A stretch of DNA of 64,000 nucleotides, taken from the NCBI RefSeq assembly GCF_963675165.1, contig NC_087391.1:1755001-1819000 (forward strand), read 5' to 3'. The DNA is from Halichondria panicea. Taxonomy: Eukaryota; Porifera; Demospongiae; Suberitida; Halichondriidae. The notes beneath the pieces were generated by a model. That model made no database searches. It was not told the origin of the DNA and saw nothing but the letters and a program-made list of their open reading frames with translations. The position numbers and the translations under genes are program-made. Positions 1,347 to 64,000 of the stretch are shown piece by piece; positions within the stretch are counted from its first letter, which is position 1, and each line of letters begins with the position of its first letter.

Positions 1347-24883
<23,537 letters not shown>

Positions 24884-31002: not shown

Positions 31003-31116
31003 GGCTAGGTAGTAGCTACCATAATATATCCGTCCAGAGAAGATATATATATATCTACGGTTGCTCAATCGCCGTCAAGTCACAGAGATCCAGAGCTCAG
31101 AGTGAAGGGAGTGGTT

Positions 31117-32817: not shown

Positions 32818-32971
32818 AGTGATGCAAAAAGCCACGCCTTTAAATATTTGCACGTTTAGCAGATAATTCTAATTAAAGAACAATTTTCGTGAACTTAAAT
32901 TTTCGTGTAGGATTGCTAACCCACGAAATCCACGAAAATTAAGCCCCTCAAAAATTTTGCGCTATACGGTA
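32818..32971. repeat. CCGTATAGCG MITE family, right-end partial copy
   Basis: It shares aaagccacgcctttaaatat, ttttcgtgtaggattgcta and the terminus gcgctatacggta with the complete copies. The left terminus is missing. Confidence 0.7.
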
Positions 32972-34866: not shown

Positions 34867-36250
34867 TAATATAGGCCCTCCAAATTATTACCTCCACTGC
34901 ATGTGCTTTCTTCCCCAAAGCTTTTTACAAATAAGAGACGTGTTTTACTCTATCACCACCCACGCAAATTAAAGTGATTCCACTCACTGGTTGTGCATAA
35001 TTTTAGCCTCATAAATGATCCAATTGAAGCATCGTCAACCGAGAATAGGCAATTACAATTGGTGACTATACGAAGTACCATCTAAGTTACGTTGTAGTAG
35101 TAAACTATCCATTCAAATAATTATGTGCTTAGCCTCATCCAAGAATATGTGGAAAGGACTTAATTACTAAATGAAACTATGGTTTTAGATAGCTTGTGAT
35201 CTGTCGTAAATAGTGAACTGTCACTATTATTATTGTAGTTCTAGTGGTAGCTTTGGTTCAGGTTTTCCGTAACCACATGTAGTATATACAGGCTCTTAAG
35301 CTTTACACACATGCAACTGTTGCAAAGATTCTGTACTGATGTGGCCTATGCCCCGTAATAATATTATGCTCTGTATATAATTATACCAAGTATGATAAGA
35401 AATATTATGCAATTATTGGCGTGTATGCTTCACTAACTCACAGAAAAAAGTTTGGAAAAAGAGTATGTATCCGATGGTGACCATATAAATGAGGTAGAGT
35501 TGGTAGAGAACAGGCCAGGGTGATCAACACAGATGCAAGGCTGGCCCAGAGCTGCCAACTAGGCTTACGGAAACCAGAGTATAATATCATCTGTGGGTCT
35601 TGTATAATTATGGGTGCATATCCTCCTCTTAGATATGGTATATATCCTATATATAGAATTAACTTACTTTGCATGCATGCATGTCATTGGGATTTTTAGA
35701 ACATGCAGTAGCTTAATTGTTCCACATATTCATCTGATTATTAGACTAACTGTATACTGGATGCCATATTTGATTGCTATATATAGGCATGTATACAGTC
35801 AGTGTGTTGTTGTTGAAAAGTGAATGCAGTTTATGTTATGATCAGCTATAGTGATTAAAACATTAATTAATTATCTCATATTGTCAAAGTAATGCCCCAC
35901 CTCCCCCCTACGGGGATAAGTGGGGATTAGTTGGGGATTAGACTTGAAGTTGCTCCCCTACCTAGGGGAATTAGACAGATCACCTGATGCATGCATTGGG
36001 TCAAAGGTCAATTAATAGCTAGATTGTCAAAGTTACCTGCATGCATGTCATTGTTTTGTTGATACGTATAGTACATTATACATGCATGTACCGTATATAT
36101 GCCTTGCATTTTTTATATATATTTTGTTGTATATAGTCCTTGCGCTGTTTTTATATAGCAGACCCATTACTATAGAAGTTGATAGATGTCCGCCCATGCA
36201 TTGAATGGCTTTGAATAATGATGTAAAATGTAGTACATGCATGCTTAAAT
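34867..36250. other. Intergenic region, no gene recognised
   Basis: It is AT-rich with no conserved coding segment that I can see on either strand. Open frames here are short and low-complexity. Confidence 0.55.
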
Positions 36251-36302
36251 GGTGAGTGTTCTCATAATTGATATGGCTCCTGCCTGGTTCAAGTTCTAGC
36301 CC

Positions 36303-37879
36303 TTAATTGATGATAGGTATCGATGATAGGTAACGGTCGTAAACCTCTTCGATAATATGTTGAGGCACAAAACCATCGTCTCTCACTCTTCTCTTGTACC
36401 AGTGAGCAAGGAGGCAGTGAGAAATAAATCCAGTAAAAGCCAGTACAGTTAGAATTGTTGTAGTTATGATGGAGTTATGTTCGTCCCAGCAACTGTTGCA
36501 CTGTATTTGAGGTTTTCTTATAAACTCGCGTATCAATTCACTTAATAGGATACAAATAGATATTGAAAGCAATACCAGAAAATGTACATATCCAGTTAGT
36601 AGTCCACGCATGTTGTATGGAGACTGAGAACATACAAACTCATTCATAGTAGTAAGTAAGAACACAGTGATAGATCCATTGAGAACGTTCAGCAGGGCGA
36701 TTGTTATGAAATGTGGATATGTAATATCAACTGGTGATATGATAGATATCGCAAGGTAGCCTGAGCTTGTTAGCAATGTAAAGAATCCTACAATTCCAAA
36801 GCGTTTGAGAGTACTTAGTGCTAGAACAGAGTTGTGTAGTAATGGATAGAGCGCAAATTCATAGGAAACTACTGTTACAATTGTACTCCACCATGAGCTG
36901 TAGCTAAAACTGTATATGAGTGCCAAATAGCATGAGCTTATGTTGGAGCTGTTTGGTATTGGCATCATCTTCATATTGTCGTACATAGATCCTGCCCAGC
37001 TTAGTGATGTTATGAACATGGGAATGCAAATGACCAAAATTTTCAGAAAAGTTTTCACGTCTTCAACTTGTTCTGCAGTGAAAGGTCCACCATACTTTGA
37101 CTTGCCCAAGTCCATTCTTGAAGGTATGTCTTCCTCCCAGTATGTGAGAGCACTGCGATTGAGGGGAGCCTTGTGTTGCTTAGCAAACTTGAGAACTTGG
37201 TAGATAGTTTTCACGGATTGAGGACAGTTGGGCTCAATAGTCAGCCATTTTGGAGCGAGAATAAACAATGAACAACAGACAATGGTCATACACAGTGGTG
37301 GAAAAATACTGAATAATTGGATATTATGGTTAGCTGTGCAATTATACATTAGTGAAGATACTGTGTCAACAATCCAAGCACCGAAACCCATAGAAAAAAC
37401 AAACCAGGCGATGAAACTACTGATGTTAGAAGAAGAAGCATCAGGCATTTGATCTAGCCCTAGCTGCAAAGCTATCACAAAACATGCTGTAGCACCTATA
37501 ATCACGAATATAAACAGTATACTTGCTACAATAGCCAACTCTAGCCCAGGAGACCAAGAATAGGAGTGACAAAGACAAAAAACATAGACGCAAGTACAGC
37601 TGCAAAAAATAAGACGATAGAACCGAATTTGAAGACTTTGTAATTTCCGTATTTTGCATCGGCCATCCATCCGAAGAATGGTATACAGATATAGAATGGT
37701 GCTGGTAAAATAATCTCCACATAGTGGTATCTCGGTAATATCTTGTTGATTCTAGTACCAAGCACTGCTTGGCACCCCCAAATAGTAGCACTGATCAGTG
37801 TTGTCCATATTAATACCAAAAGTGCTCCTTTAGAATAGAAACGTCTCACTCTGTACTTGCAGCACCTTTCCTGAGCCAT
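36303..37879 (-). pseudogene. SLC15/POT-like proton-coupled transporter, left copy, frameshifted
   Basis: It is homologous throughout to the copy at 59183-60760. The product starts [20 protein letters not shown] and shows many hydrophobic segments, the POT-family signature [17 protein letters not shown] after TM2, and [20 protein letters not shown], comparable with the DQF-like motif of peptide transporters. POT proteins import di- and tripeptides or related substrates with protons; the substrate here is unknown. An extra eight bases (agaccaag at 37551-37558, plus-strand reading) relative to the other copy break the frame after FVFVTPI. Removing them would leave 523 codons, close to the other copy's 526. 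The gene is nested antisense to the decayed ERO1 exons to its right. Confidence 0.82.
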
Positions 37880-38076
37880 AATCATTCTTTATAATAATAA
37901 TTATTATGAGTTGGCAAAAATATTTTATTCTCGCTTATCTAATATCCCCATAGGATTACTCTGTTTTGTATTTTTGAACCTGAAACTGGAAAAGCTTTGT
38001 GACTACAACATTTGTGAAAATATCCCAAATTCTGTATTGACAGCAGCTTCTGGCTGCATGGCTCCTGGCCATGGCT

Positions 38077-38240
38077 GGCTGACATACACAGGTCCTGGCT
38101 AGCTCAAAAACTTGTACTTAGCCTATAATTATACCTCCACCTCCGAGTGTTGAGGGTTTTATTAAAACGAAGCGGTATATATTGGCAGAGCTACCAGTTC
38201 AACAAGACAGAAGACATGGAAACCAGGAACATGGTGATGG
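38077..38240 (+). pseudogene. ERO1 pseudo-exon (GPGWLKNL exon), left arm
   Basis: It begins acaggtcctggctagctcaa and ends catggtgatggagatcat, matching ERO1 exon 9 at 56934-56775 (minus). Internal small deletions and stops (for example ttagcctataattatacc) destroy the frame. Confidence 0.8.
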
Positions 38241-38511
38241 AGATCATTAATATAAATAATTGGTATCAACAACCGTGCATATACCTTCATTAATCTCTTA
38301 TTTAGTCACTTTGAATTGGCCTCTCGATCTGCTCTTTGTGTGTGAGCTGACGCTGTTTTATGAGTGTGGATACGTTTTCATCTTTGAATTTGCTGACGCT
38401 GTTTTATGAGTGTGGATGCGTTTTTATCTTTGAATTTATACAGTGGCTGCTCTAGTTTGTTTGATGAATGTCAATCGATGCATGGGCAACACTTCAAAAC
38501 TGCTGCTCTTA

Positions 38512-39168
38512 TACAGTGCATCCAGTCTATAGAGAATATAGATTACCACAAATATGTACTTATATCGATGTAAGAAAATGTGCTGCACCATTGTGCATGA
38601 GATAAATAAGCTACAAAAATAATGTTTCTATGGCAACATATTGTAGTGAACCATGGAACCATGGAACGCTTAAAATCATGGAGTAGGAACCATGCAACGC
38701 TTGAAACCATAGAACAATATATAGTGACGTGGGTAATCTGAAAAGACCAACAGTTTTCGGCTATATTATATGAAGTCTGGGATTTTGTCACAACTTCTAT
38801 ATAGATAGAGCGGGTTTGGCTATGTTATGAAGCTATAGGGTTTGATACTACTTACATCCTATACACATCCTCTGCAGGGTAGATTACCACAAATGTGAGT
38901 ATAGTTGTACTTAAAAAATATTTCCCCAAAGTTGTTAGGTGTTTAACAGTGCGAAATCCAGAGGTCTAAAATTACACAGAAATGAATGTGATAAAAAAAA
39001 ATGTGTCCAAAAACTTAGTTTCAGAGAAAATAATAGATGATACATAAAAAATTATGATCACCCCGTTTTCACCTAAATGGATTTCACACTGTTAACAACT
39101 AACAACTTTGGGAAATATTTTTTCACATTTGTGGTAATCTACTCTCTATAGACTGGATGCACTGTAAA
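38512..39168. mobile_element. Foldback element inserted in the left duplication arm
   Basis: The ends tacagtgcatccagtctata and tatagactggatgcactgta are inverted repeats, continuing into agattaccacaaat / atttgtggtaatct. A nested inner hairpin joins aaatatttccccaaagttgt to acaactttgggaaatattt. A related piece occurs at 39540-39735. It is absent from the right arm. Confidence 0.75.
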
Positions 39169-39319
39169 GATTTATGCCGCACAAGAACTTCTGTGGGGAT
39201 TGCCAATATACAAAAACGCCTACAGTACAGTGTCCCAGTGAAAGAGTTGAACACATGACGTTTAGGTACACACTAATGCAGTATGCACATATGCATGTGG
39301 TTTTAGATCTAGTTGTTTT

Positions 39320-39510
39320 CGCAAAATGGTATAAAAACATCTCTCGGATTATGGATTGTGTATAGGCTATAGGCTTTGGGAGAAGTTATACAGGTATGTT
39401 TTTCAAAACTTAAGGTATTGTTATCAAAATAGCTTTATTATCAGTACAAAACTCTGTTAATTCAACATCCCCTTTCCACCCCACTACCTCTTGTAGGTGA
39501 TTAATAGAAC
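39320..39510 (+). pseudogene. ERO1 pseudo-exons around the inner active site, left arm
   Basis: The frame reads [10 protein letters not shown] and then stops. The intact right-arm exon continues with [10 protein letters not shown], so the CxxCxxC inner active site has been deleted here. The acceptor has changed from ttcgcag to ttcgcaa. The following intron end (catcccctttccaccccact) and start of the next exon match the right arm at 55021-55060. Confidence 0.8.
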
Positions 39511-40187
39511 AGTAAACGTTAATTATATTGGGTAGTCGGTTAGTGAGAGAAAAGACCAACAGTTCCAGCTAATGTCCAAAAATTACACATGAGTAAGCTT
39601 GAATTGTCTATATAGCTTTTGATTAGAAAATTTGTCCAAAACGGCTTGAGATAAATAAATTTTTGCACATATTTTTTTACGATCACCCCCGTTTTCACTT
39701 AATGGATTTCCCACAATAACAACTTTTGGGTTGTAGCTTATTCATTCACCAGAAATGTTCCATTTTTGATATATTTAAGTATACAACTACTCACAGGTAT
39801 TACTCAGCACTGTAAATATAATATGGCTTTTTGAGGGAGATCGCTTTGAAGGGAAATTGGACATAATTATAGTTCCATGTATACTATACCTTAAGGTGAC
39901 ATATTTTCGCGGGTGTTACTTTTGCGAACGAGAGTAAAATAAGAGTAAAATCGCAAACATTTGTATATACTCGCAGATAATTGAACTCCACTTGTGAGTA
40001 ATTAGAAACGCTATGAATAACATTAATTTCACAACTTTAGCAGAATTTAATACCAGCAAATATGAGCTAAACAGTAAAATTTCAGACAAATCTACCTGTG
40101 AAATATGTCACCATAAAGGTAACTTAACAGGTCCTCAGCTCCCTATACATATTAATTATGCCTCGAGGCGTAGCCGCACGAGGGATA

Positions 40188-40244
40188 CGGTAAAGCTGAC
40201 TGTGTGTGTCTGTCTGTCTGTCTGTCTGTGTGTGTGTGTGTGTA
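40188..40244 (+). repeat. GTCT/GT simple repeat in a tail motif
   Basis: A gtctgtctgtctgtctgtgt and gtgtgtgtgt run follows gcctcgaggcgtagccgcac, which looks like the end of a dispersed repeat. Confidence 0.7.
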
Positions 40245-41589
40245 TTCCAGCTATAACTGCTCAACGGTTACAATGCGACGAAAACTAACAGCTTCTATAG
40301 GCTTCTAGCCACGTTCTCTTGGATTTTGATTTGTGGATTAGCAAACTAAAGCTTCTTTCTCGAGTTATGGCTAGTTTTACTCACATTGAAGGCTGTTGCA
40401 GTCTCTTCAGAATCTTTCATAGCATCATCTGTTCGCACAAACTTTCTATTCAACTTATGAGTTAGCCTTGCACTAAAGCGCTAGCTTTTTGTTGGCTACA
40501 AGAGTTAGAAAGAGCTGCTAAAGAAGCTAGCTATTTTAGTAGCCATTATTGATTGAACTGCAGACACACCCCTTAGATCTAATGCGCATGCGCGCTCAAT
40601 ACCACGGTAAGAGAATCCATTTTGCAGAGAATCAGCTTTGTTGAGGTCCAGGTACTCAATTTATATTATTCGTTACTGTGTTTAATCAATTGCTAACACC
40701 TATTCTGTCAATTTGAAATCATAATTATTGCAAATTATTAACCTTTCTAATACTTGTGAGCGAAAGCAAAAACATGGCGAGAGGCATTAGCACAGCGCCA
40801 GCTTGAACACTAGTTGTACAAGTCATGCAAGTTTCAGCTCATATCATTTTGCCAAATTGAAGCAAGCAACAAGTTAGCTGAGCTACCATCGCAATCACTA
40901 GTCAGACGAAATAAATTATGAGGAGAGTTAATTGATGCATACAACTGGAAAATTTGGTGGATATTATAATTATTTGGCGAATGAGCCATTTGAGCCTTTT
41001 TAATTTGGCACCGTCTCAGGCGTGGCTACTGCAGCAATGACGTTGTGTCCACCGGAAAACTTTAAGTTGGTAAAGTCTTCAGTAAAATTTGCCAGTCACC
41101 AAATTAAAAACACCTACCAGTTACATAGTGTATTTAAGGGCGCATTTTACAGCCCATGCATGACAATTCCGAGTTAATATCTTAACCCTTTACCTACCAT
41201 GCATTTGAGTCATAAACGCGTACCCAGCACTGTGTCCATCAGAAAGGTCACAGATAGAACACTGTATGTGACCTCACAAGGAAATACCACCATGACTAAA
41301 CACCATGACCAGCAATCTGCACACCAATACAAAACCCTTTTGGGACTAGATTAAAAGAATAAGGAATGGAATCACTCGTATCCCTGACCTTTTCTATCAG
41401 GACCAGTCATTTAGAGAAGTTGCTGACAAATTAAGCCATTGCATTCAATTGCTACTTTTCACCAAAGAAAGCATGAACCAGTTAACTTCCCCATGCAGGA
41501 ATTTCACCATACCCTCAAGTAAGCTTGAAGATGTGAAAAGGAAGTCTACGAAGCACTTTGTAGGATCAACCCCGCAAAATCTTGTTGAC

Positions 41590-42790
41590 CGGACAACATG
41601 CATCCCTGGGAAAATCAACCCTTGTTGAAGCAGCACTATATAGAGACTCATAAACCACTCACAAAAAATATTCAACATGTCCATGAGAACAGGAAAACTC
41701 CCCAAAGACTGGACCAGAGCGAATGTTACTCCGATCCACAAAAAAGGCTCAAAACATCAACCATTACCAGTAAGTCTCACTATAAAACATGTCATATACG
41801 ATAAAATATATTCCCACTTATCAACAAGCAGAAAGCTATCGGCAAATCAACATGGCTTCCGCAAGGAACACTGCTCAGCTACTAGAGTGTGTGGATCACT
41901 GGGCAGAGTCACTGAACAACAGCTCCTCAAAGCACATCGTATTTCTTGACTTTGCAAAGGCATTCGACTCTGTCCCACATAATTACTCAAACAGATAACA
42001 TCGGCATTAGACCATGCCACTTCTCACATGGTAAATGCCTTCCTCACTAACCGTGCACAGATCGAGAGTAGGCATTGTATCTACAGTAACATCTGAAGTT
42101 CCACAAGGTTCCACCCTATAGGCCTTCTCCTCTTCCTCATCTACATTAATGACATAGGTAAAGGGATCTCTTCCGAGTGTAGACTGTTTGTCGACAACTG
42201 CACAGTCTACAGATGTGTGAACAGTCAAGATGATGTGACGTCAGTCCAACGAGACATAACTATACATTCTATTGCTGGTCACAAACTAGGCAACTACCCT
42301 AATTAAATCTGAGCAAGAGCAAATGTCTCGTCATCTCAAACAAGCGTACTCCCCCACGGCCAGTCTGTAACTACAAGATCAACAACACTACTCTAGAGAA
42401 TGTGAATAGTTTCAAATATTTAGGTGCGCTGATCGACACCAAACTGAAGTGGTCAGCGCAAGTGAATGCCTCAACCGCCAGAGCAAACCAAATCTTCACA
42501 ACCTCTTGCAAAGGAACCTTCGAGGCTCATCCAAGTCCATCAAAAATAGATCCTACCAGGCCCTTGTTCGTCCACACTTGGAGTTGTGTGTACCCGTGTG
42601 GGCACCCCACCAACTAAAAGACACAACAGCATTGGAAAAAGTAGAAAAGGGCAGCAAGATGGGCATGCGCAGTGTGGAACCCCATCACATTTTCCTGGAA
42701 CAAATCCTACGAAGCGTGCTGCGAGGAAATATGCAATGGACAATGCAGGGACCTACTCGCATTGCATGTACCAAACGTACAAGATAGTGG
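41590..42790 (+). pseudogene. Decayed non-LTR reverse transcriptase, fragment 2
   Basis: In order: KLPKDWTRANVTPIHKKGSK, SANQHGFRK, IVFLDFAKAFDSVPHN, IYINDIGKGISSECRLFVDN, FKYLGALIDTKLKWSAQV and YQALVRPHLELCVPVWAPHQ. The order is that of a non-LTR RT plus thumb. The YADD-type box has become FVDN, and the blocks lie in different frames with internal stops, so it is inactive. It sits in the spacer between the arms of the inverted duplication. Confidence 0.85.
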
Positions 42791-43739
42791 ATTGCATAGA
42801 CCCTATACTATACACTACTTGCACAATAAGTCATCAACAAAAACACACAATTTATCTTATAACCTGCTATAATTCTAGAATAAACATAATTATAGGCACT
42901 CTTTTTTTATTAGAACACCTTTCATGTGGACAATCTGCCTCTCTCAATATAATTATGCTCTAGTGCATAATACAACGATTCCTAGAGTGAAGCAAAACAT
43001 TCTTTTCAGAACTGACCCACAGTGCAATATGCCGTAATTATATTCTTCAATCTCAGAGGTCAAAAGGCAACAATATTGATTAACACCATGCAAGAGAAGA
43101 GAAAAGTGTCGAACTACCGATTACCTCTACACAAAAATTGTGCACAAAGTAACGTGACATCCTGCCAATTGCACGTGAGCAACTCGCAATTGATGACGTT
43201 TGCATGCGCAATCATACATTATATACGCAGCGCACATAATTTGTTAACAGTGGAGGATCAACTCGACTATTGTCTCTATTTAGATGGTTTTTGTGAAGAG
43301 ATCGTCTCCGCAGTGAGCAGCTCTAAAATGTTGAATGCGAACGACTAGCTAGAATGAGATGTCATTGTTCAATTACCACACCCCTAAAAACGTCACGACT
43401 AACATTTACTAGAAAATTACTACAATATACTTTATCACGTGAAGTCGTGTTACTTTGTACACATGCAGTTTTTGTGTAGAGGTATCGGTATAGTTCGACA
43501 CTCTTCTCTTCTTTTAATTATACTCTTATAAATTATACGTTTAACTGAACCAAAACATGGCGAAAGGCATTAGCACAGCACAGCTTGCAACACTCGTTAT
43601 AATTAGTTGACTTTGTTCTATGCTTATACAAAAATAAATACTAGAATTTCACCCTATCATAAATGATTAACCAATTATTCTTTAGACACCTACAGGTATA
43701 TAGCTATTATCGGCTAAAATTATTCCAAGCATCATTTAT

Positions 43740-44720
43740 CAGGGCCTAGTTATGTGCCAAATTGGACAACATTGGTATAAGGAACAACTGGATTAAGGCA
43801 TTCCTCGTGCAGTGACTGCCAACAACGCGTTCTCCTAGACAAACAAAGCTCTACAGACTACATGGTCAACTGTCACAGCAGATGTTCCACAAGGGTCTAT
43901 CCTAGGGCCTTTATACTGTTTCTATAGTCTATGTTATCGACACCAATGCCAAAAAACTCAGACCAGGCTATTCGCCGATGACTGTACACTCTATTGAAAG
44001 TGCATGTAGATCTATCATGCAAACAGGACTGCATTTCCCTACAGAAGGACCTCACCGTCAAAAATCTTCTTGTGGTCACTAACATAATTATACATGGTAA
44101 TTATCCTTTAATATCAAGGTTCTATGCATATCAAACAAACGTTCACCCCCCAGCTACACTTCTACATAATGAATAATTCTCTAGTGGAATTTGTAGACAA
44201 TTTTAAGTACCTTGTCCTATAGGAGTACATATAGACAGCCAACTAAACCTTTTTGCGCCGATCAATGTACATACAGATGCAGGAGATCAGCCAAGAAAAG
44301 AGCGTTCACATTGCAGCTCTGTTTTATCTGGAGTATATATGCCACACCGTTATCATTGAGTCCCCATTCAGCCACTGGGAAAGCTGAAAGTTCAGAGGAA
44401 AGCAACCCACTGGATTTGTTCCAAGTAGGACAAACATCATTACTGTAGGACAAAATCATACGACCAAGCCCGACTACATACAAGATTCTAAACTCTCTCG
44501 ACTGCAATAAATATTTCAGACTATGTACTACAAACACAATTAAGGCATCACCACCTCGAACTCACGCTATGCTGAACAGTTGAGAATTGACAGTCAGTAC
44601 AGGTAGATCTATTCATATTTTATTAATGCCCCGCACTTATGGAACAGTCTACCAGAAGGCATTGTAAGCTCAAGTTATTCAAAACTAAGCTACATGACTT
44701 TTTTAGAAAATGTAGTACGT
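43740..44720 (+). pseudogene. Decayed non-LTR reverse transcriptase, fragment 3
   Basis: Blocks in order: DVPQGSILGP, LFADDCTLY near 43970-43995, FVDNFKYL near 44189, and a C-terminal APHLWNSLPEGIV near 44630. The intervening sequence is frameshifted, and the 5' half of the RT is largely gone. Like fragment 2 it is preceded by an aacatggcgaraggcattag motif. Confidence 0.75.
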
Positions 44721-45010
44721 GTTTGTTTGTGCTCTTAGACCCGGACTCTTATAGGTTTATTTAAACCTTCTGTAACAGTGATAACCCGATAAAATTAGTA
44801 TCATAACATAAATTGCATTCACTTTCAACAAAAACACTGTTACTGTTAAAAAGCGTTTCTATTTAGGTGCTGTAGAGCTGGTAAGCTCCAACCAGCTAAA
44901 AGTTAGCATTTCCATCCTTGTCCACCACATAAAGCATAAATGAAGCCATAATAATTGACCGCATAACTTCCGGGGTCAAACTCGACTTTAATATCTATAG
45001 ACTACATGAC

Positions 45011-48000
45011 ATGCAAGAGATGGCTAGAATCACTGCTTCTGAGTTGGAGCAGTTCATAGTCGCTACAGTTGAGTTGACTGGACGTGCACTAGGAGCAGGT
45101 ACTTATGGCAGTGTAGAAGAGGTAGAGATACCTGGAGCAACGGTAGCTGCCAAGAAATTACACCAACAGCTTGTCAACCTGGGCTCTCCACAGCAGGTAG
45201 CAAGATGTACACTGTTATTTGGCATAGCCAGCATAGACTAATTAGATCTACTAAGTCTATAGTTGTACAATTTACTGGATGATTTTTGCCCACATTGTAC
45301 AGATTGAGAAATGGGTGACTGATTTTGTGGAGGAGTGTAGGCTGATGAGCCAGCTCCGTCACCCTCACATAGTACAGTTCCTGGGGGTGTGCTATCTCCC
45401 TGGAGCCCAACTCCCCGTTTTACTGATGGAGAAGCTACAAACCAGCCTCGAAAATCTTCTGGAAACCAGCCCCAGAATTCCTATTGACCTCAAAGTGCAC
45501 CTTCTGACGGGGACTGGCCGAGGGGTGGTCTATCTGCACAGCCGCACTCCACCCATTTCCCATTGCAATCTGACAGCCAGAAACATTCTAGTCGATAATG
45601 GTCTCAATGCCAAGGTAGCAGATTTGGGTGTTTCTAGGATTGTGAACATTCAACCTAGCCGGCTAGCTGCCTGCGCCTCAATGCCAGGCACTGGTGTGTA
45701 CATGCCACCAGAGGCAGCTCAAGAGGAAGGCGTCACACGATACAACACTGCCATAGACATTTTTTCTTTTGGTGTAGTATCTCTGTTCACACTGACACAA
45801 ACCTTCCCCAAAGATCTCAAACCTGCTGCATATTATGATCCAGTTACTCAAAGGGTCTTAGGACAAACGAAAATTGAACGTCATAAAGATTACATGGTTC
45901 CAATGAAAACAGCTCTTGGTGAGACCCACCCCCTAGTCCAGTTGACCCTCGATTGTCTTGAGTTCCTTCCTGAAGATCGACCACCTGCTGTGATGGTGTT
46001 GAGACGATTAGAGGAGGTTGGAACAACACTTTCTCAGAACTGCACCCAGACCAAGCTGGAACTGATTCAACAGGTTGCTGGGAAGGAAGAAGAGGTACAG
46101 CGAGTTGCCGCAGATGCTGAAAGAGTAAAACAAGGCGCAAATAAAGTACTGCACTTGGAGGAAATGAAACAAAAGCATGTTGAAATCAATCAACTTCAGA
46201 AAGAATTTTCAAGTCAAGTAAATCAGTTACAAGGAAGTATCGATCGTCTTCAAGCTGAGAAACGAGCCCAGATAAATGCACTTCAAGCAACTGTTGATGA
46301 GAAACAAGATCAAGTTTGTGGACTGGAAGAACTGACCACTCTCCAACAAGAGCAGTTGGAAGTTCAACGCAGAGAAATTGATCGTCTCTTCAGTTCAGTG
46401 AGGTCTCTACAGATACAGCAGGGCTCAGGGCAGGTGAGTGGGTGTTTGTCCTTCTGTAAGTCAGTTAATTGAGTGTGCTTTTGGTAATATTTGCCAAAAA
46501 GTAGGCAGTTGATGATGACAGTGTGGTTTGGCAATTGGTCTACATATTATACCGTATAGCGGCAATTAAATTTTTGTGAAGTGCGTTTTTCAAGGGTAGA
46601 GTAGTTAACGCGAAAATTAAAGCTGGGATAAAACTCCCACGCATCGGTATTTCATATATATGCAAAGCTATTGGTGGGTCCAGTCCAACAGCAATAGTGC
46701 CTGTGCATGCTCCTACGTGGAGTTTTATTTTCTCCACGAATATATTAAATAACTTTTTGCAATTGCTTGCACCAAACTCGAATTTTTTTATAACTCTTCC
46801 CTTTGCAGTTTATTTTTGCAAGGGGAAGAGAGTTATTAAAAAAATGCGAGTTTGGCTTCCTGCACCATTCTACCATACATGGCAGGATCTAAATTTAGCC
46901 TTAGAGCCACTGCGGGGCATTGATTGGAATGTCAGTTTTGGTAAAATTAAAACCCTTGCGTAAAGTGCACTGAACAATTGTTTTGGAGGTATGAGATGAA
47001 TTTTAACATGTTGAGTGCCCATCCCATAATATTATTATTGATGAACGTGTGTATATAAATATTTTTTATGTCGATTCATTAACGGTCGAGAAATGTGTCG
47101 TTGAAAATGTTGTATAAATAGCACTAGTGAAGAGAGACGTGAACACAAAGTAAGTTACATTTTGTGTATTTCCTCCAACAGATGTCCTCCTCAATGCATT
47201 CCAAGCATCGTCCAGATCATTAGTGTACTTGCATTCTGTGTGGTGCAAAAACTATACTTCATTACGGGTAAAAATAGTGCTTAATGAGTTGAACGGACCA
47301 GCTGTATATGCTTAGCCTACTTTAGAGAAGCTCGACTAACCTACCCAGCTTATTTAGTACCTATATACATGGAAGAAAACTGGTTATCGTATGAAGTGTG
47401 TCTATCCTGAATACCCAACATTACCGAGCGACAGGTTAATCTCACTGTTCTTTTCCACAGTTAGTGAACTTTTAAACGTTAGCAGCAGTGTGAAACAGCC
47501 ATTACTGTGGCTTAGACCAGGTGAACTTGCAGAGATTGTAAGAACATCGAAACGAACGAGCCGGAAATTGAATTAGATTAAAGACAGTGAGACCAGTGAC
47601 AGTGACAAAGAGAACATAGAGACAGGAGTCATGACTGCCCTGGAGTATAGTAATAAATTATTATGACGAACTGATAGATATGCATGCAAACGTTACTGAA
47701 TGTTTAGCCATAGATAATGGTTTTACTATGCTTTTTGTATTGTTTACACGATGTAGTACCATCTACAAAAGTCTACTGACAAATTGTTTTGGAGGGAAAT
47801 ACACTTGCAAAACCCTGCATGCACTTAGCTTAATAACAGATCTACATAGTTTAAAATTGTGTCCCTGGCATAACAGACTAGCTACTCCATGTAAAAGCCC
47901 AAAAGTATGTGCACAGCAATGGCAATTTTGGCTACACTACTCAACAAAACTCGCTTCAACTTAAGAGTGTTCCCTTCATTTCAACCATGTACTTACAAAA

Positions 48001-52028: not shown

Positions 52029-52265
52029 TATTTCATGTACACGTCAATCAATGTAGGGTGTATACATCTAGAACCTTGATCTATATACCATCTTGGAATG
52101 TTTATAATCAGGACTTCAGTATATACACGTATATAATTATACCAAAAAGCTTGCATGTATGTAGCTCTCTTTCCTGGTTTGCTAAATAAATTACTAACAG
52201 CTATAAAATAACCCAAAAGGCTGTGGATTGCTCCTTTACCACTGCCTATAATTATTGCGACTTAT

Positions 52266-52482
52266 TACCGTATAGCGCGAAATTTTCAAGGCACTTATAT
52301 TTCATTGATTGGCCTCTTTTCGTTGCATTTTCGTTGCACAATGTTCGCGGAATGACTTACCAGAAGCCACGCCTTTAAATCTTTGCACGTTATAGCAGGT
52401 AGATTCTAACAATTTTCGTGGACTTAATTTTCGTGTAGGATTGCTACCCACGAAATCTGCGAAAATTTCGCGTTATATGGTA
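52266..52482. mobile_element. CCGTATAGCG MITE family, complete copy (TA-flanked)
   Basis: It runs from taccgtatagcgcgaaattt to aaatttcgcgttatatggta. The outer TA at each end could be a TA target duplication, as in mariner-like elements. It ends some 20 bp before the kelch block that starts at 52503. Confidence 0.78.
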
Positions 52483-52502
52483 TAACAATAATTACTATAC
52501 TA

Positions 52503-53222
52503 ATGCACACACCAGATCAAGGTGAGCTTCCACCCCCTTCAGTGAGTGGATTCACAATAGCAACACTGAGAAGTCAACTGCTAGTGGTCGGAGGTCGGGA
52601 CAAGTCTACTAAGGAGAACACGAATACTATCCTAACATTCGATGAGAGCTCTCGACAATGGGTCCAGTCGTTTCCCCCCATGCCAAAAGCAATAACTTTG
52701 CCAAAAGTTGTTGGCTATCGGAACCATCTGATCGTTATCGGTGGATATGACTCAAACAGCACTAGGATAGCTGATGTGAGCATTCTAAACACAGGTAACA
52801 AATGGATCACAGTCAAACCACTTCCCAGCACTGATGACTACAGCACTTGCCTAATTGGAGACACACTGTATCTTGTAGGTCAATCCACTAAAGAAGTGTT
52901 TCGAGCTCATGTACCCTCCCTCATGTCACGAGCCAGTTCTGGTGTGTGGGAGTCTGTCGCAAGTGTTCCTTTCTATTGGTCGTCTCTCATCGCCATCGGC
53001 AACACCGTCCTAACTGTGGGAGGTAAGGATAGTAAAGAGCTACGAGGTATGGCTATCTCAAGCATCCACCTGTACAATCCCATCAAAGACCAGTGGACAC
53101 AATGTGGTAACCTTCCCGAGAAAATGAAGTGTCGCTATTGCATTGAACTATCTGGTAAACTGTGTGTACTTGGTGGTAGTTCTTTGTACACATCAATTTA
53201 TATCACATCCATTACACACTAG
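52503..53222 (+). CDS. Kelch-repeat C-terminal block
   Basis: The open frame of 239 residues shows four to five kelch blades: LRSQLLVVGGRD, YRNHLIVIGGYDSNSTRIAD, IGDTLYLVGQ, IGNTVLTVGGKDSKELRGM and LSGKLCVLGGSS, each with the hydrophobic-GG pattern and followed by W-containing strands (RQWVQSFPPMP, DQWTQCGNLPE). It ends soon after the last blade at 53222. It lacks its first blade, which looks like the segment ending the exon at 48342-48661. No acceptor is visible directly upstream, where the MITE at 52266-52482 ends. It is probably the missing 3' part of the kinase-kelch gene, cut off by intervening sequence, but a separate small gene starting at 52503 cannot be excluded. Confidence 0.7.
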   Translation: MHTPDQGELPPPSVSGFTIATLRSQLLVVGGRDKSTKENTNTILTFDESSRQWVQSFPPMPKAITLPKVVGYRNHLIVIGGYDSNSTRIADVSILNTGNKWITVKPLPSTDDYSTCLIGDTLYLVGQSTKEVFRAHVPSLMSRASSGVWESVASVPFYWSSLIAIGNTVLTVGGKDSKELRGMAISSIHLYNPIKDQWTQCGNLPEKMKCRYCIELSGKLCVLGGSSLYTSIYITSITH

Positions 53223-54487
53223 TACGTAGTTTGTATAACTTTATTGTAATTATTTATTATTATCACAAAATAATGTACATTTGATCTGAATGTTATATGT
53301 CAGTTGTACTGCATGACCATGCATATATAGATACAGGAAAAGGAGGGATTGGTATATATATGTACCCTCGAGTAACATCCCGCGGTTCAAGGTTGTGTTA
53401 ACAAGCATATATATAGATGGGTGTGACCTGGCTAGCCAAGCTGCATGACGGCCTATTTCTACATGCACAAGTCATGCAGTTCTATAATAAACCACACGCA
53501 AATGTGCTTATTCTGTGCAACTCACTTCTATTTAAAGGTCTATTTATATATACCTATATGGGTGATTATTTAAGATGAGTGTTTATTGTCAAAGACAGAG
53601 CTTTTACCCTGGGCGTTTAAACGAGATGGGCGTTTATACGGTATACACATGTAGCGTTGACACATCCACCGAGGCATCAGTACCCGCGGTTCTTTCATTA
53701 TGACAGCACCACCTCCAAAAAATGATAATGTGACTGTGTCATACCGCACATATATAGGGATGAACCTCTGTCCTCTATTATAGCTCCTCGAAATGCAGCT
53801 ATAAATACCACCTCTAATCACCTCCTTCCCTAAAATCCTGGCTATACTACCCCTGGAACCATGCACGGTAGTGAATTGTGGTAGTAAGGTGAGTGCATGA
53901 GGATAACCATACATGCATAACAAACTGCAACCTTTTTGGTGACCCAACACTAAAAATGTCAACACAGTATGGAATTGCTGTTCACAAACACCTTGCTTTA
54001 AAAGGCCTTGCCGTCCGTTTTCATACGCAGCTTCCGGGAAAATGGCAAGTTATCATGGAGAAAATTATTCTTTTAAATTATGAATATTAAATGTGCATGC
54101 CTCATAATCTACCAAACCCTTAATGTTTCCCCATTGACTCGGACCCAAGTCTGTGTGTGTAGATAAATAAGTTGTTTGCACTTTAATAATGAGGCACTGA
54201 GGTAAAATTGACATTAAATTCTATAGTTCTGATTTGTTCGATATACTGTCGTTCGATGGGTTTGAGTTAACCTGCAGAAAAACAATTGGCGTTTTATTAG
54301 TCTCGCACCAGCCCCTAATTTTTATTGCTCCTATAATAATTTATATAATTATATGCTGCCAGCGAGCTTCCATGCATGCTCACACTTACTACTGCATTCA
54401 TTAATGGTATCACTCGTTTAATAATTTTAAGGATAATTATTTATGTCAACAGCCGAGGGTTTAGCATTTCAGTACTTATAGTTATAG
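53223..54487. other. Intergenic region, no gene recognised
   Basis: I see no conserved segment on either strand. Open frames here are short and look random. Confidence 0.5.
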
Positions 54488-57400
54488 CTAGTACAAAGTA
54501 CTCACCTCCATTCGCCTGAACATTTCTAAATATTGAATGCTACTAGAAAACCTGCAAAAAAAGATATAAACAAAGTTAAATACAATAATTATGATACCAT
54601 TGAATCAATCTACATGCACCTCCTTTTCATGCACACAATATCAGGGCATTATATAGGGGGAAGTTGAATATACTTCCCACTCAAGTTTATTGTAAGGACA
54701 TTAATTTTGTTATAAGGACTGTAATACACTGCACTACTTACTTAATATTCACAGGTAGATTTGTCTGCGATTTCACTGTTTAGCTCATGATCATTTTAAT
54801 TGCTGGTATTAAATTATGCTTCTGCTCAAGTTGTGAAATTAATGTTACTCATAGCGTTTCTAATTACTCGCAAGTGGTTTTATTACATTTAAGGTATACA
54901 CGCTGACTTACTTCCCCAGTACATTGAACAGGGCAATTGCTTCTGTTCTAGTCAAACGTAGAGGAGCTTTGTTCCTGCGATTGGAGAAGAGGATCTTCAA
55001 AGCTGTTCCTACACCCTTCACCTGCACAAGAGGTGGTGGGGTGGAAAGGGATGGTTAGATTATATATACGCATGCAAAGAGAGTTTTCTCTCCTCGTTAA
55101 AAATACATTTCGACATTACAAAATTAAATCAATGGCCATTAAGTTTGAGAAACATATACCTGTAACTTCCCCCAAAGCCTGCACTTGTCACAACCCACAC
55201 AATCCATAATCCGAGAAATGTTTTTGAAATGAGCCTTGAAGTCATTCTGCGAAAACACTTGATAAACCACATGCAAACTGTATAGTTAACACCATAACGT
55301 CATGTATTCAAATCTCTCAATGGGACACTGCATGCATACTGTATATTAGCCTCCTTCACCGGCCTTCATAGAAAAGAAGGCCTGCTATCGACTGCTTGCG
55401 CATGCGCACAATTATTGGATATTTTTTCCCGTAAAATTTCCTATAATACAGAATTCATCAGAGAAAATATCCTAAAAGTCATACACAGAGCTATATAGCT
55501 AGCTAGCTATAAATAGAGACAGAGCTGTGTAGGTTTGTTGTACAGCTATTTTCTTCCGGTAGCAGTAGCATAGTAGACTTTCACCAAAGTTAATGTTAAA
55601 TGGGCGTGGCCTGTCCTCTTGTCAGCTTTCACTCCGTTCAGACGATTGTCATCCACACTGTTGCAGGCTGTGAGTCTTTTATTAACATAGCAGGCTAAGG
55701 GTAGCTATCAGAGAATGCTATCCGATGGGCTAGAAACCTTCAATCGAACTTTTTATCTACTTTCTTCAATCCACTTCCGTTCGTTGTGATGTCATAGTTT
55801 TACTGAGCATATATACGATGTTATCCAAAGCCCCCAGATACCGGGGGGATATTAGCGCATGCGCAAGCAGTCGATACCAGGCCCACTTCCCTAAGTGAAG
55901 TGGGAAGTGCGGCCTGGGATCGAGGCTAACTGTATATAGGTGTTGGCGTTTCTATACTTAATAATTATACACTACTTTGTTGTATAATTAATTATATTGG
56001 CATCCCCATAGAAGTTGTGTGCATGCGACACAGACCTTTAGCAGTTCTGAAGTGTTTCCAGTAAACATCATCGACTCATCAAACAAACTAGAGCAGCCCC
56101 TGTATAATTATATAATAAATGCATGCATACATGTGAGTGCTCACACATTTTATTATATATGCCACATTAAAAACAGCATCAGTTCACTAAGAGCAGAGGA
56201 AGGTCGATAATCAAAGGACTAAAAAAGCGGGTATCATGATTGTTCACTATATAGCCTTGTCCCTTATCCCCATGCAGGCTTTCCTTTTCTTGCTCTTGTC
56301 TAGCTCTCAATATAAAATATGATGGGAGACAGTAACGAAGGAAATGATGGACGTTGTAAAACCTGCATGCACATGTATACATTTTTATGAACGTGGGCGA
56401 TATTTAGCCCACAATCATGATGTAGGGTATTCTCCAACGCATTATTAAAGACACTGCTAGTTCCTAGGTAGATTTCTAAATCTACCTAGGTACCAATTAA
56501 GTACCAAGTCATGCAAGCTCAGTGCAGAACCAGCGCATGCACCAGTCCTGATTTAAGGTGGGCAGTCAAATATCTCAACCTTTACCCATGCTCAAATTTC
56601 ACCTTCTACCACCCTTCTATATACCGTCACGCAACTTTGTATCCCAGGCTCCTTTTTTATAACTTTCCCTCTTTATTCCTACCGTATTTTATCATATTGA
56701 AACGATGACAAAGAACAGAAAAAGGAGAGCCTGGGACCGAGACTATATAGTTGTTCACCAATTTTATAACTAACTTTGCTGCTTGTATGATCTCCATCAC
56801 CATGTTCCTGGTTTCCACGTCTTCTGTCTTGTTCCCCGTGTAGAACTGGTAACTCTGCCAATAAGGCTCCGTTTTAATGACAGCCTTCAACACAAGGAGG
56901 TAGGCAAAGTACAAGTTTTTGAGCCAGCCAGGACCTGTGTTTATGTATATAGGAGAGTGTGCAGTTAATGCATTATTACCCAGGGCGCGTGGGCGTCCAC
57001 GGGTATACCGTATAATATACTGCTTATCTTCGAGGCACAAAAATTGGTTTACATCCGGTATTGAAACCTCTCTACTGTAGGGGTGTGGTCATTTGAAGCT
57101 CTATCCTTAAAAATAAAATCCTCAAAATGTTTAGTTTGGGTAATCCGCAAACATTTAGTGCCTCGAAAATAACCTGCTATATACGATAGTATAGACAATA
57201 AGTATAGTCATTATGGTTTGTCTGTCTATCTGTTGACGATTTTTGAGCCTGCTCACCTGAATGCCATACATATAGCGGTGCGTTTACAGCATGGATAGCC
57301 TTCACATAACTACATAACTCCTCAAAAAGGAGGCCTGCAACTGACTGTTTGCGCATGCGCAAAATTATTGGATAATTTCCCCGTAATTTTCCCATTAAAC

Positions 57401-60400
57401 TGAAATTTACCCGAAAAATATCCTGAATAACAAAAATACTACATACACAGAGCTATATAGCTAGCTAGCTAGAGACAGAGCTGTACATTTGGTTACAGCA
57501 GCTATTTCTTCTGGTAGAGTCTACATGTAGACTTTCACCAAGGTTAGTGTCAGATGGGCGTGGCCTGTCCATATAGGCTATTGTCAGCCTTCCCTCCGTT
57601 CAGACGATTGTTATCCACACTGTTGCAGGCTGTGAGTCCTTTGTTAACATAGCAGGCTATAAGGGTAGCTATTAGAACGCTATCACACGGGCTAGAAACC
57701 TTCACAATCCATAGGTGCCAACTGTCCCGAAACTCCCAGGACAGTCCCGGATTTGGAGGCTCTGTTCTGTGTCCCGTCCGGAAATTGCTATTTACCTGAA
57801 ATGTCCCAGATTTTCAAGGTTGCTGCTCCTACTGGGATAATACAGTCCGAAGAAGCTCAAAAATACTGCAACTATGGCTTGAAAGCTTAAATCATGAGCA
57901 GAATTCAGTTTCCTGAATTATGCTATCTGTCTATTGCTACAATCGGGTTAGAAAAAAGGGGTGGGGCTGCTGCACTGTTTTTGTGGGTGGGGCTCTCCAG
58001 AAGATCATACTGAGCATGCGCAGAAAGCAACCGCTAACAACAAATTTTTTGTCCGGGAAATTTTTCTTTGGAGGTTGGCACCTATGACAAACGCACTTCT
58101 ATCCACTTTCTTCAATCCACTTCTGTTCGTTGTGACGTCATTGCTTTACTGAGCATTATACAATGATATCCGGAGTCCCCAGTTTCTGGGGATTATGTGG
58201 CGCATGCGCAAACAGTCGATACCAGGCCCTCTCTTCTAGGAAGAGCGGCCTGGGATCGAGGCTATCACATAACATGTTATTAGTTTTAATAGTGGCAGAT
58301 TTTGATGTTAAAGTTTCGCTGTCAAACAAAAGCTAAAAGCTTGAACCTGCACGTTGGTCATTAGAAAATATAAATTCGAGGCATGCACTATAACATTATA
58401 TTACACATACGTGCCACATGGATACGTATTTGTTTATGGGAAAAGATTACTGGCTTCTTTGCTGGCTGTACATGTTGCCTTTACACAACAAGTTATTAGT
58501 TTTAATAGCGACAGATTTTGGTGTTAAAACTTCGTTGTCGAATAAAAGCTTGACGTTGGCAGCTATATACCCGACCTTTATTCTCAAGGTAGGCCTATTT
58601 TATGTACAGCTGAAGTGATCCCGTACCAAGAACAACGGAAAAGGGTCACTAAAGTAGAAAGCTAGAGTTGTGACTGGTTTCTTTGCTGGACTCTGGATCC
58701 TAGCACCAGGACCATGCATACTTCTCTAAGACTCCAGGCTTGTTCACTGTAATCATAGTTCACAGTGTATGCACTACTCAAATGTTTCAGCATGCATGTG
58801 TCCAGTCTGGGTCTATTGCTCCTGCATGTGCTAGACAGCTCAGTCATACATACTACATGCACTGCCATTATATCACTCCTCTGGTTTCTTTATAATCATG
58901 TCATCTGCCGAGGGTTTGCAAATCAGTGCTCTAGTTGTTGTAGCTGCTGCATGTTAGCACGAGACTTTTAATTTGTTGTCACATAAAGCAAGTTTGTCAA
59001 TTACCGTACATGGGGAAGGGCTTCAGTTTCAAGTTTAGATTTACACCCACGCACAGTGCAAATAACACAAAACAGTGCTATACTACGGGGGTATTTGTTA
59101 ACGGCAACATTTACTATAATCATAAGCAAAAATAAAGTTGAGCTCTGAAGAATAAGCAAACTAACAGTACACCAAGTACTTCATGGCTCAGGAAAGATGT
59201 TGCAGGTACAGAGTGAGACGTTTCTATTCTAAAGGAGCACTTTTGGTATTAATATGGACAACACTGATCAGTGCTACTATTTGGGGGTGTCATGGAGTAC
59301 TTGGTACTAGAATCAACAAGATTTTACCACCGAGATACAACTATGTAACAATTGCTGTACCAGCACCATTTTATGTCTGAATACCATTTCTAGGATGGAT
59401 GGCCGATGCAAAATATGGAAACTACAAAGTCTTCAAATTCGGTTCTGTTGTCCTATTTTTTGCAGCCACACTTGTGTCAATATTTTTCGTCTTTGTCATT
59501 CCTATTCCTGGGATAGAGTTGCTCAAGGCTATTGTAACGGGTATACAGTTTGTAGTTGTAGTTGTAGGTGCTACAGCATGCTTTGTGACAGCTTTACAGC
59601 TGGGGCTAGATCAAATGCCGGACGCTTCTTCTTCTAATATCAGTAGTTTTATCGCCTGGTTTGTTTTTTCCATGATTTTTGGTGTTTGGATTGCTGACAC
59701 AGTATCTTCACTAATGTATAATTGCACAGCTAACCATAATATCCAATTATTCAGTATTTTTCCACCACTGTGTATGACCATTGTCTGTTGTTCATTGTTT
59801 ATTCTCGCTCCAAAATGGCTGACTATTGAGCCCAACTGTCCTCAATCCGTGAAAACTATCTACCAAGTTCTCAAGTTTGCTAAACAACACAAGGCTCCCC
59901 TCAATCGCAGTGCTCTCACATACTGGGAGGAAGACATACCTTCAAGAATGGACTTGGGCAAGTCAAAGTATGGTGGACCTTTCACTGCAGAACAAGTTGA
60001 AGACGTGAAAACTTTCCTGAAAATGTTGGTCATTTGCATTCCCATGTTCTTAACATCACTAAGCTGGGCAGGATCTATGTACGACAATATGAAGATGATG
60101 CCAATACCAAACAGTTCCAACGTAAGCTCATGCTATTCGGCACTCATATACAGTTTTAGCTACAGCTCATGGTGGAGTACAATTGTAACAATAGTTTCCT
60201 ATGAATTTGCGCTCTATCCATTACTACACAACTCTGTACTAGCACTAAGTACTCTCAAAGGCTTTGGAATTGTAGGATTCTTTACATTGCTAACAAGCTC
60301 AGGCTACCTTGCGATATCTGTCATATCACCAGTTGATATTACATATCCACATTTCATAACAATCGCCCTGCTGAACGTTCTCAATGGATCTATAACTATG

Positions 60401-63400
60401 TTTCTACTTACTACTATGATTGAGTTTGTATGTTCTCAGTCCCCATACAACATGCGTGGACTACTAACGGGATATGCACATTTTCTGGTATTTCTTTCAA
60501 TATTCCTTAGTATCCTATTAAGTGAATTGATACGGGAATGGACAAGAAAGTCACAAAAACATTGCAACAGCTGCTGGTATGAACATAACTCCATCACAAC
60601 TACAACAATTCTAACTGTACTGGCTTTTACTGGATTTATTTCTCACTGCCTCCTGGCTCGCTGGTACAAAAGGAGAGTGAGAGACGATGGTTTTGTGCCT
60701 CAACATATAATCGAAGAGGTTTACGACCGTTACCTATCATCGATACCTATCATCAATTAAGGAGCTAGAACTTGAACCCGACAGTACAGTAGTTATTATT
60801 ATTATTTTACAGTGTACACAGTACATGCGTGAACATAACATACATTTACACTTTCACCTTAATAAATCATTATGGGTCTGTTATGAACAGCACTAATAAT
60901 TATGGCAATGTGCATATTACCTTTGTTTATATACGCTCGTACCTTGTCCGTTCGTAGTTTCAACATCAAATCTTCTAACAAACTCATTAAGATTCGGTCC
61001 AAACTGCACATCTTCTTCAGCTTTTCCTGAATACAATAGAAACTTGAATATAATTATGTGCACGACCTTCAATACAAACCTTTCCTTGCTTGTAAAAATA
61101 TGTGCAAAAGGAAAGCAGAAATTGCATGGTCTGTAAACGCAGTACGTGTGCATGTACCACCATGCATGGTATATGTAATAGATATACATGTAGAATGAGA
61201 GCGAGTTCATTGCCTGTATATAACACATGCTAAATGTGTTTTAATATCACGATAACAAAACAATATAACACGGAAGGGACTGTATGACTTTATTAACCTT
61301 GACAACGTGATATAATTATAGTTACACAATAGTCCTATTCGTTTAAGAGCCTGGAATTTTGATTGCTTTTTAAACGCCCACTAACTACTTCCTGTATAGC
61401 TTCCGCAGTAAAATTGTGCTGAGCTGGCACACCCTTTTACATTGAAGTCATTGTAAAATCAATGCGTTTTTGCAGCCTCTGCATTCTGCAATGCATGCGC
61501 TATTATTCTAGATAAAGGAAGTTTGTGAAATATTGAAGTAAGAGCTACACAATGGTTTTTGTCCCAGAGAGTGTTTGTCAACTGTCAGTGAGCTAGCTGG
61601 TCTTGAAGATACCTACTATACACACAGTAAGTGCAGTAGTAGTAGATCTAAGAGGTAGTCTAATGCTCAAGGATGATGGAACATCTTATATACATAGTAG
61701 GCATCTGCAGAATTGTGTAGAGGAGATGTTCCACTATCTTGGAGCATTAGTTTACCTCTTAGATCTACTACTACTGCACTATACTGCACTTACTGTGTAT
61801 ATGGTAGGTATCTTCAAGACCAGCTAGCTCACTGATAGTTGACAAACACTCTCTGGGACAAAAACCATTGTGTAGCTCTTACTTCAATATTTCACAAACT
61901 TCCTTTATCTAGAATAATAGCGCATGCATTGCAGAATGCAGAGGCTGCAAAAACGCATTGATTTTACAATGACTTCAATGTAAAAGGGCGTGCCAGCTCA
62001 GCACAATTTTACTGCGGAAGCTATACAGGAAGTAGTTAGTGGGCGTTCAAATAGCAATCAAAATTCCAGGCTCTTAAACGAATAGGACTATTAGGTTAAC
62101 ACTCACCAAGAAGGTAGTTAGCTGACAGGTGAGTGTTGATACTGGCATGGAGACCAGACACGAGTCTGTAGAAGGCTCTCTTCTCAAGACACATACCTAA
62201 AGGAGGGAGTGAGGGGTAGCAACAAGATGACACACAGAATGATAAGTAATAATCATGGCATGTTCTTTATCGAGAAGATTTTACTTATTTCATTTCAGTT
62301 ATTTTTTCTGCAAGCACACGTACAGGACATACACTACAGTACTATATAGTTGTCAGGCACGTACGTACCTTGCAGCAGAGAGGGATGGAAGAGTGGAATG
62401 GAGGTAGACTGGTCCACTCTCTCTGGTCTGTAGGAAAGTAGTACCATCATAACATACCGTATAGCATGACATTTTCAAGGGGCTTAATTTTCGCTGATTT
62501 CGTGGGTTAGCAATCTTACACGAAAATTAATTCCAAGAGAAAATTGTTAGAATTATTTGCTATAACGTGCAAAGATTAAAGGCGTGGCTTCCGGCAAGCA
62601 GTCATTCCACAAACATTGTGCAACGAAATGCTTTTAGAGGCCATTCCACGAAACATAAGTGCCTCGAAAATTTCGCGCTATACGGTAATACATGTATATA
62701 CATGTATAGTCTATGGTAAGGTAGAAGAAACTAAAGACGGAAGTAGAATCGTGAAAGTGAGAGGGTTTGGACAAAAAGGTGGTGAACTGACAATACACCT
62801 GAAGCAGTTTTCGTGGTAGATGGCCCTCCATATCCGCTGTGCAGAGTGGCCAGAATAGCCGGTGTACCTCTCAGGGTTCAGGGTGAGGTCAACGTACCGC
62901 AGCTCACTGGAGGTCTCGTCTGTAATTTAAAGAAGTTTATGAAATGAACGAAACATCCAAACTCACCTTCAGGTTGGCAGAAATTGTCCTCTGTCTCATC
63001 GTGTTCTTGCCAGATCAAAAAATCCTCCAGCTGCTGGATGCTACATGAGAAAGGGGGGTAGGTCGAAGGTACATGTATATTCTGGCTAAGGAGTGCTATA
63101 CCGAGTACCTGATGGTTTTGTCTATTGTACTGAGACTCTCCTCTTCGTCCGAGACCTGATCACATGACTCGATCACATGGCTGCTTACATCAGGGACATT
63201 AGTCTGAAAAGAAGTCAGGGTACATTTCAGTCAATGTTAATACGTATACTTTTGGTCAAAGAACAAGTACCAAAGAGGAAGTAGCATTTACACAGGAATT
63301 AGTGGGGTTACTAGTGGCCAGTGATTAAAACGCTCGACTCAAGAGCAATTTTCGAGTCCCACCAGTACTAGAAACTTTGTCAGTTTATGATGAGTTACTC

Positions 63401-63900: not shown

Positions 63901-64000
63901 CTGCACAGTAATAATGAGTAAGAACAAAAATCGTATATTTAATTTTGTAGCCAATGCTTTTTATACTCCACACACAGTACAAAATGAAGCTGCTTTATTA

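Follow-up and report, generated by a model that had tools for sequence, protein, structure and literature searches.

The window, the whole stretch of 64,000 nucleotides that was analysed (contig C15, positions 1755001-1819000), belongs to a genome of 131,455,214 bases in 39 contigs, which was searched with its parts. An ERO1 gene lies on the minus strand, with 16 exons in one frame of 472 codons including the stop (471 amino acids; splice sites were listed for 14 exons), and an SLC15A4-like transporter copy lies on the opposite strand in its tenth intron. Part of this arrangement recurs in inverted orientation to the left, and a third transporter copy is found on contig C2. The features of the right arm and its gene are the following.

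54221-54271, minus strand, ERO1 exon 16 with the stop codon (splice sites)
54506-54551, minus strand, ERO1 exon 15 (splice sites)
54912-55021, minus strand, ERO1 exon 14 (splice sites, ERO1 model)
55160-55246, minus strand, ERO1 exon 13 (splice sites, ERO1 model)
56036-56099, minus strand, ERO1 exon 12, missing from the first-pass annotation (splice sites)
56775-56934, minus strand, ERO1 exon 11 (GPGWLKNL), intact (splice sites, ERO1 model)
56930-56960, plus strand, ERO1 exon 11/intron 10 acceptor sequence, shared by the region next to the C2 copy (pattern search)
56935-60942, minus strand, ERO1 intron 10, host of the right transporter copy (splice sites)
57038-58937, plus strand, repeat-rich stretch enlarging intron 10 (self-BLAST, genome search)
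59183-60760, plus strand, right transporter copy, SLC15A4-like, intronless frame, antisense in intron 10 (family relation via the C2 copy)
60943-61026, minus strand, ERO1 exon 10, the donor of which bounds the host intron (splice sites)
62107-63900, minus strand, ERO1 exons 9 to 3 (gene model)
64017-64124 and 64734-64871, minus strand, ERO1 exons 2 and 1, past the window end with the numbering continued beyond it

The joined ERO1 protein matches human ERO1-alpha with 393 bits over residues 41-455, and in this alignment CVGC is present and CVLRDC stands opposite CGRRDC. We take CVGC to be the inner CxxC and CVLRDC to be the outer cysteine pair of ERO1, the catalytic cysteines, which gives the right-arm gene a full-length ERO1 frame with both motifs. 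One exon frame scores 44.5 bits to the ERO1 model PF04137, with a cut-off of 27. The genome search with this model, which may miss weak or short pieces, yielded five matches among six candidates scored, all five of them in the right-hand gene and above the cut-off, and no left-arm match at E<=0.001. The transporter frame (59183-60760, plus strand) is wholly inside intron 10 (56935-60942, minus strand) and is therefore nested in ERO1. This intron interrupts the coding sequence in phase 1, within the Gly codon that precedes PGWLKNL. Within the intron, 57038-57181 and 58560-58936 are dispersed repeats, and 57325-57704 and 58088-58264 are related to 55372-55928. The neighbouring intron 9 contains a palindrome at 61328-62092 with 311-nt arms that are 98 % complementary, 143 nt between them and an inner pair of 65-nt arms; it occupies about 70 % of the intron, ends 14 bp from exon 9 and is probably a fold-back transposon.

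The left arm contains a second transporter copy followed by remnants of ERO1, as listed here.

36300-37879, minus strand, left transporter copy (sequence alignment)
38086-38247, plus strand, decayed remnant of ERO1 exon 11 (130 of 150 aligned bases identical; indels break the frame)
38436-38504, plus strand, decayed remnant of ERO1 exon 12 (46 of 64 aligned bases identical, with indels)
39228-39413, plus strand, decayed remnant of ERO1 exon 13 with adjoining intron (55 of 80 aligned exon bases identical, with indels)
39470-39500, plus strand, end of ERO1 intron 13 and the first approximately 4 bases of exon 14, the last secure homology (arm alignment)
39988-40102, minus strand, dispersed-repeat copy with its partner at 54748-54877, uninformative about the duplication

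Self-BLAST of the window aligned 59183-60784 with 37879-36280 in minus orientation over 1610 columns at 92.4 % identity. A more sensitive arm-against-arm BLAST (right 54000-62300 against left 35000-42000, both strands, E<=0.01) returned six matches, right-arm positions first below.

54748-54877 and 39988-40102, inverted
55018-55050 and 39470-39500, inverted
55139-55330 and 39228-39413, inverted
56040-56107 and 38436-38504, inverted
56787-56940 and 38086-38247, inverted
59183-60784 and 36280-37879, inverted

All six are inverted and collinear, which is well beyond chance, and the inverted duplication with parts in equal order that the first-pass annotation had described from the letters alone is borne out. 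Its arm limits (36250-40118 and 54755-60790) hold as to the arms and fail at the outer ends, where the outermost block, which it called a conserved intronic block, proved to be a dispersed repeat with at least 40 matching places in the genome (40 scored of 232 candidates, both window copies included). Six places elsewhere outscore the left-arm copy of this block when matched against the right copy. The block was dropped as arm homology, although it may be a co-duplicated copy after all. Because a dispersed repeat does not set the arm end, the secure outer limits were placed at approximately 55018-55050 and 39470-39500, the latter alignment having a score of 52 that was reached by none of 1000 shuffles (highest 33). 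On the transporter side, clear homology between the arms stops 24 bases past the transporter stop codon. The arms therefore extend from approximately 36280 to 39500 and from approximately 55018 to 60784, with equal part order and opposite orientation. Exon 11 and the transporter are ordered and oriented alike in the two arms, in agreement with the earlier proposal that the nesting predates the duplication.

ERO1 is intact only on the right, as had been stated before, with a 16-exon frame there and remnants with indels on the left, where the open frame of a functional ERO1 is absent. Exons 9, 10, 15 and 16 had no match in the left arm in the arm-against-arm search (E<=0.01), and exons 3-8 had no left-arm match in the self-BLAST of the window, a comparison that covered the gene from exon 3 onwards. 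Only a portion of ERO1 was copied into the left arm, so decay there needs no special explanation; the claim that selection on ERO1 persisted in one arm alone agrees with the intact right-hand gene and is near-trivial, the left arm being a partial copy.

In the assembly both nested transporter copies are broken, at different places, a feature new relative to the first-pass annotation. The right copy has an in-frame TGA at codon 66 (59378-59380) and the left copy a frameshift near codon 111 (approximately 37540), lesions that would presumably abolish function. The C2 copy has a 526-amino-acid open frame, the sole open frame of the trio, and is identical at 89.0 % of DNA positions to the right copy and 89.6 % to the left. 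In a PDB sequence search, residues 62-371 of its protein matched SLC15A4 chains with a best E of 4.3e-11 (PDB 8p6a), a relation in sequence to the SLC15A4 peptide/histidine transporter. Unlike members of the POT/SLC15 family, the transporter copies scanned did not match the Pfam POT model (which we take to be PF00854), either for the nested copies (E up to 5) or for the C2 protein and one further family member, L006 (E up to 0.1). For this reason the transporter is named SLC15A4-like and is not filed as a POT member; the earlier label, POT-like transporter, is upheld by the SLC15A4 likeness and lacks the Pfam model. The family has at least 94 matches in the genome (92 of 609 candidates scored), mostly of one long frame each. 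Protein identity to the right copy is 88-89 % for the left and C2 copies, 42-54 % for the other listed members and 45 and 56 % for two short family pieces. SLC15A4-like genes are greatly expanded in clusters on contigs C5, C10, C14 and C15, many of them having open frames above 500 amino acids.

The C2 copy, which the first-pass annotation lacks, shares more than the transporter with the ERO1 locus. With exon and coding sequence removed, its 5' flank aligned with the right flank (58938-59182) at a score that no shuffle out of 1000 reached in any of three scoring schemes. Of 1000 shuffles, 1, 0 and 0 reached the corresponding left-right score under the three schemes and 0, 4 and 0 the left-C2 score; over a longer stretch the left-C2 score of 37 was below the shuffle maximum of 41. 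The retained C2/right flank consists of 58938-59182 and the acceptor region. A longer C2/right 5' flank, 58732-58937, was dropped as dispersed repeat (58560-58936), and a left-right flank score of 75 was set aside because some 44 bases of exon 11 contributed to it, the weaker exon-free result being used instead. The sequence shared by C2 and ERO1 comprises approximately 5 bases of exon 11 and the acceptor. Aligned by itself, the C2 acceptor stretch gives a borderline result, its score being reached by 0, 1 and 5 of 1000 shuffles in the respective schemes, and its weight derives from a genome-wide count in which the 21-letter pattern AGGACCTGTG...TAGGAGAGTGT occurred at two places, the ERO1 border and C2, and its reversed control at none.

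On the 3' side, a weaker similarity between the left and C2 flanks is supported (0 of 300 shuffles) and extends past the clear left-right homology, and the left-right (113 of 300) and right-C2 (32 of 300) comparisons are not significant. A second left/C2 3' stretch (score 69, with 60 shuffles reaching up to 59) was dropped, having no BLAST match at E<=0.5, and a genome search with the left-arm 3' piece did not recover C2. No ERO1 exon was found beside the C2 copy past the approximately 5 bases when 3,970 bases upstream were compared with both arms and approximately 4,100 downstream with 60785-64000, and the matches at E<=0.5 all lay outside exons. A dispersed repeat of about 350 bp (L007:5854-6204), with copies about 90 % alike (40 scored of 798 candidates), lies directly 3' of the C2 copy.

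Given that the acceptor pattern occurs at just two places in the genome, ERO1 intron 10 is most likely the source from which the C2 cassette was copied, a direction that depends on the intron being taken as older than the cassette. The reverse history, in which the C2 copy was the source and the transporter moved into ERO1 with the shared acceptor carried along or coincidental, is considered unlikely. It would accord with the location of the only open frame of the trio on C2, with a large wider family located elsewhere and with the borderline result for the acceptor stretch when aligned alone, but it has to account for the bases of exon 11 that C2 shares together with the acceptor, in a pattern confined to these two sites.

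The transporter arms are a mosaic, a property absent from the first-pass annotation and hidden by the overall identity of 92 %. Synonymous divergence between the right and left copies is 0.335 in codons 0-170, 0.029 in codons 170-280, 0.025 in codons 280-400 and 0.219 in codons 400-530; in the same blocks it is 0.17-0.27 between right and C2 and 0.17-0.36 between left and C2 (excluding codons 100-122 near the left frameshift). Counted with gap columns, and in segments chosen after seeing the data, the arms differ at 77 of 520, 11 of 680 and 35 of 375 positions. Difference-free runs of 189 and 131 bp occur, and the longest run of right-left identity among the variable sites had p=0.0043 in 10,000 shuffles. 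Identity is thus patchy and synonymous differences are erased within the patch, the pattern of ectopic gene conversion. Since constraint on the protein would spare synonymous differences, gene conversion between the inverted arms is the explanation that best fits the mosaic. As a consequence, dating by identity per segment, which had been proposed earlier, would give unlike ages for different parts of the arms. Outside the converted tract the trio is nearly star-like, and for that reason either the left-arm or the C2 event may have come first.

Substitutions assigned to the three branches (with five no-majority codons omitted as well) gave nonsynonymous to synonymous counts of 25:16 for the right copy, 21:29 for the left and 34:47 for C2, and 22:14, 17:27 and 20:20 respectively outside the converted tract. 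The neutral expectation is 2.45-3.18 (kappa 4 to 1), and all three branches fall below it, which suggests purifying selection on all three transporter copies. From these counts, which are blurred by the tract, the nested copies were probably selected for most of their history and broke late. The right copy may have been under relaxed constraint (Fisher p 0.056 against C2 and 0.093 against the left copy). The same low ratios would also be expected if conversion had never occurred and the likeness of the transporters came only from purifying selection on the protein; this is quite improbable, because in codons 170-400 the arms differ at synonymous sites by only 0.025-0.029 and C2 differs from both by 0.17-0.27.

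The preferred reading, a nested transporter carried in an inverted duplication, with conversion between the arms, late breakage and a copy on C2, is given a probability of about 0.76. It would begin with the arrival of an SLC15A4-like gene, its frame without introns, antisense in ERO1 intron 10. Intron 10 and the transporter within it, together with exons 11-13 and the exon 14 acceptor, would then have been duplicated locally in inverted orientation, to a site about 15 kb away, where the partial ERO1 copy, being nonfunctional, would have decayed. The transporter copies would have remained under selection for most of their history, the central approximately 680 bp being exchanged between the inverted arms by gene conversion, and each nested copy would later have broken, by the TGA on the right and the frameshift on the left. 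A third cassette, consisting of the transporter and intron 10 flank, would have been copied to C2, where the open frame was kept.

A different origin of the host intron would have the transporter cassette inserted into ERO1 coding sequence and spliced out since, so that the guest created intron 10. The homology between C2 and ERO1 starts approximately 5 bases inside exon 11, and at the opposite end a weak alignment that lacks significance for the C2-right pair suggests an extent to within about 20 bases of the exon 10 donor; if this origin were true, the cassette would nearly coincide with the whole of intron 10. It is regarded as a long shot. An assembly artefact in which an uncollapsed haplotype of the right arm appears as the left arm, as the near-identity in the middle of the transporter (11 differences over 680 positions) might suggest, is very improbable: the arms are inverted on one contig, the exon remnants, where aligned, show 13-31 % difference and many indels, most ERO1 exons are missing from the left arm, the right flank 60761-61060 matches itself alone in the genome, and the left flank 35640-35870 matches only itself and a piece of approximately 48 bp at 44800. 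An independent transporter insertion into each of two ERO1 segment copies already present, with guests that the many-membered family could have supplied, is considered exceedingly improbable given the same intron and orientation in both arms, the related left and right 5' flanks (1, 0 and 0 of 1000 shuffles) and the grouping of both copies with C2 at 88-89 %, with the other listed members at 42-54 % and the two short pieces at 45 and 56 %.

In ectopic gene conversion, sequence exchange between duplicates keeps parts of paralogues alike; compared with known cases, the tract proposed under the preferred reading lies inside a nested gene and between inverted arms. Antisense nesting with joint duplication is described for LRRTM genes, which lie in alpha-catenin introns, were co-duplicated with their hosts with later losses of either, and are retained as three lrrtm/ctnna pairs in most jawed vertebrates (PMC3933685). 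The present locus is like that system in having an opposite-strand guest in a host intron duplicated with its host, and differs from it, as there described, in that the host was copied partly, locally and in inverted orientation and both nested guests are broken (PMC3933685). DNA-mediated intrachromosomal duplicates in inverse orientation, partial ones included, are also known (PMC4546093). The ERO1 copy resembles these in being on the same chromosome, inverse and partial, and departs from them, as far as they are described there, in carrying a complete foreign gene that is still recognisable beside a decayed host fragment (PMC4546093). Among sponges, 2432 nested genes (12.4 %) are given for Aphrocallistes vastus, and in other sponges the number differs greatly and is annotation-dependent (PMC10282587). 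Genes within introns of others, the arrangement seen here, are frequent in some sponge annotations, whereas the pair described here differs from the nested genes reported in the available text in that host and guest were duplicated together (PMC10282587). Among the papers listed in the literature search, none reports this locus and none concerns SLC15A4 with Porifera.

Each element of the locus is a known process, and the combination is tidy. It constitutes a small natural experiment, in that the duplication took in a nested gene along with part of its host and their fates can be compared: the host fragment decayed, and the guest was apparently selected, appears to have swapped sequence across the arms and been copied to another contig, and broke at both nested sites.

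The spacer between the arms had been described as full of retroelement debris. In a Pfam scan of 10 of its 17 frames of at least 100 amino acids, this agreed with one retroelement frame and disagreed with three others, one each of kinase, Kelch and ankyrin type.

45255-46472, kinase-domain frame, 405 amino acids (PF07714, E 5.5e-26)
50105-50455, GAG-pre-integrase fragment (PF13976, E 6.9e-12), the sole Pfam-supported retroelement piece among the 10 of 17 frames scanned
51326-51649, ankyrin frame (PF00023)
52428-53222, Kelch-repeat frame, 264 amino acids (PF01344, E 1e-18)

To the left of the arms, a direct repeat joins 28003-29506 and 31350-32892 at 92.6 % identity, with similar frames at 27764-29053 and 31009-32416 that are presumably glycosyltransferase-like, judging by the motif FLDTDDFF; the frames between these two appear by eye to be reverse transcriptase-like. 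Overlapping direct self-matches of 92-95 % identity at 23893-24135 probably represent a short tandem array.
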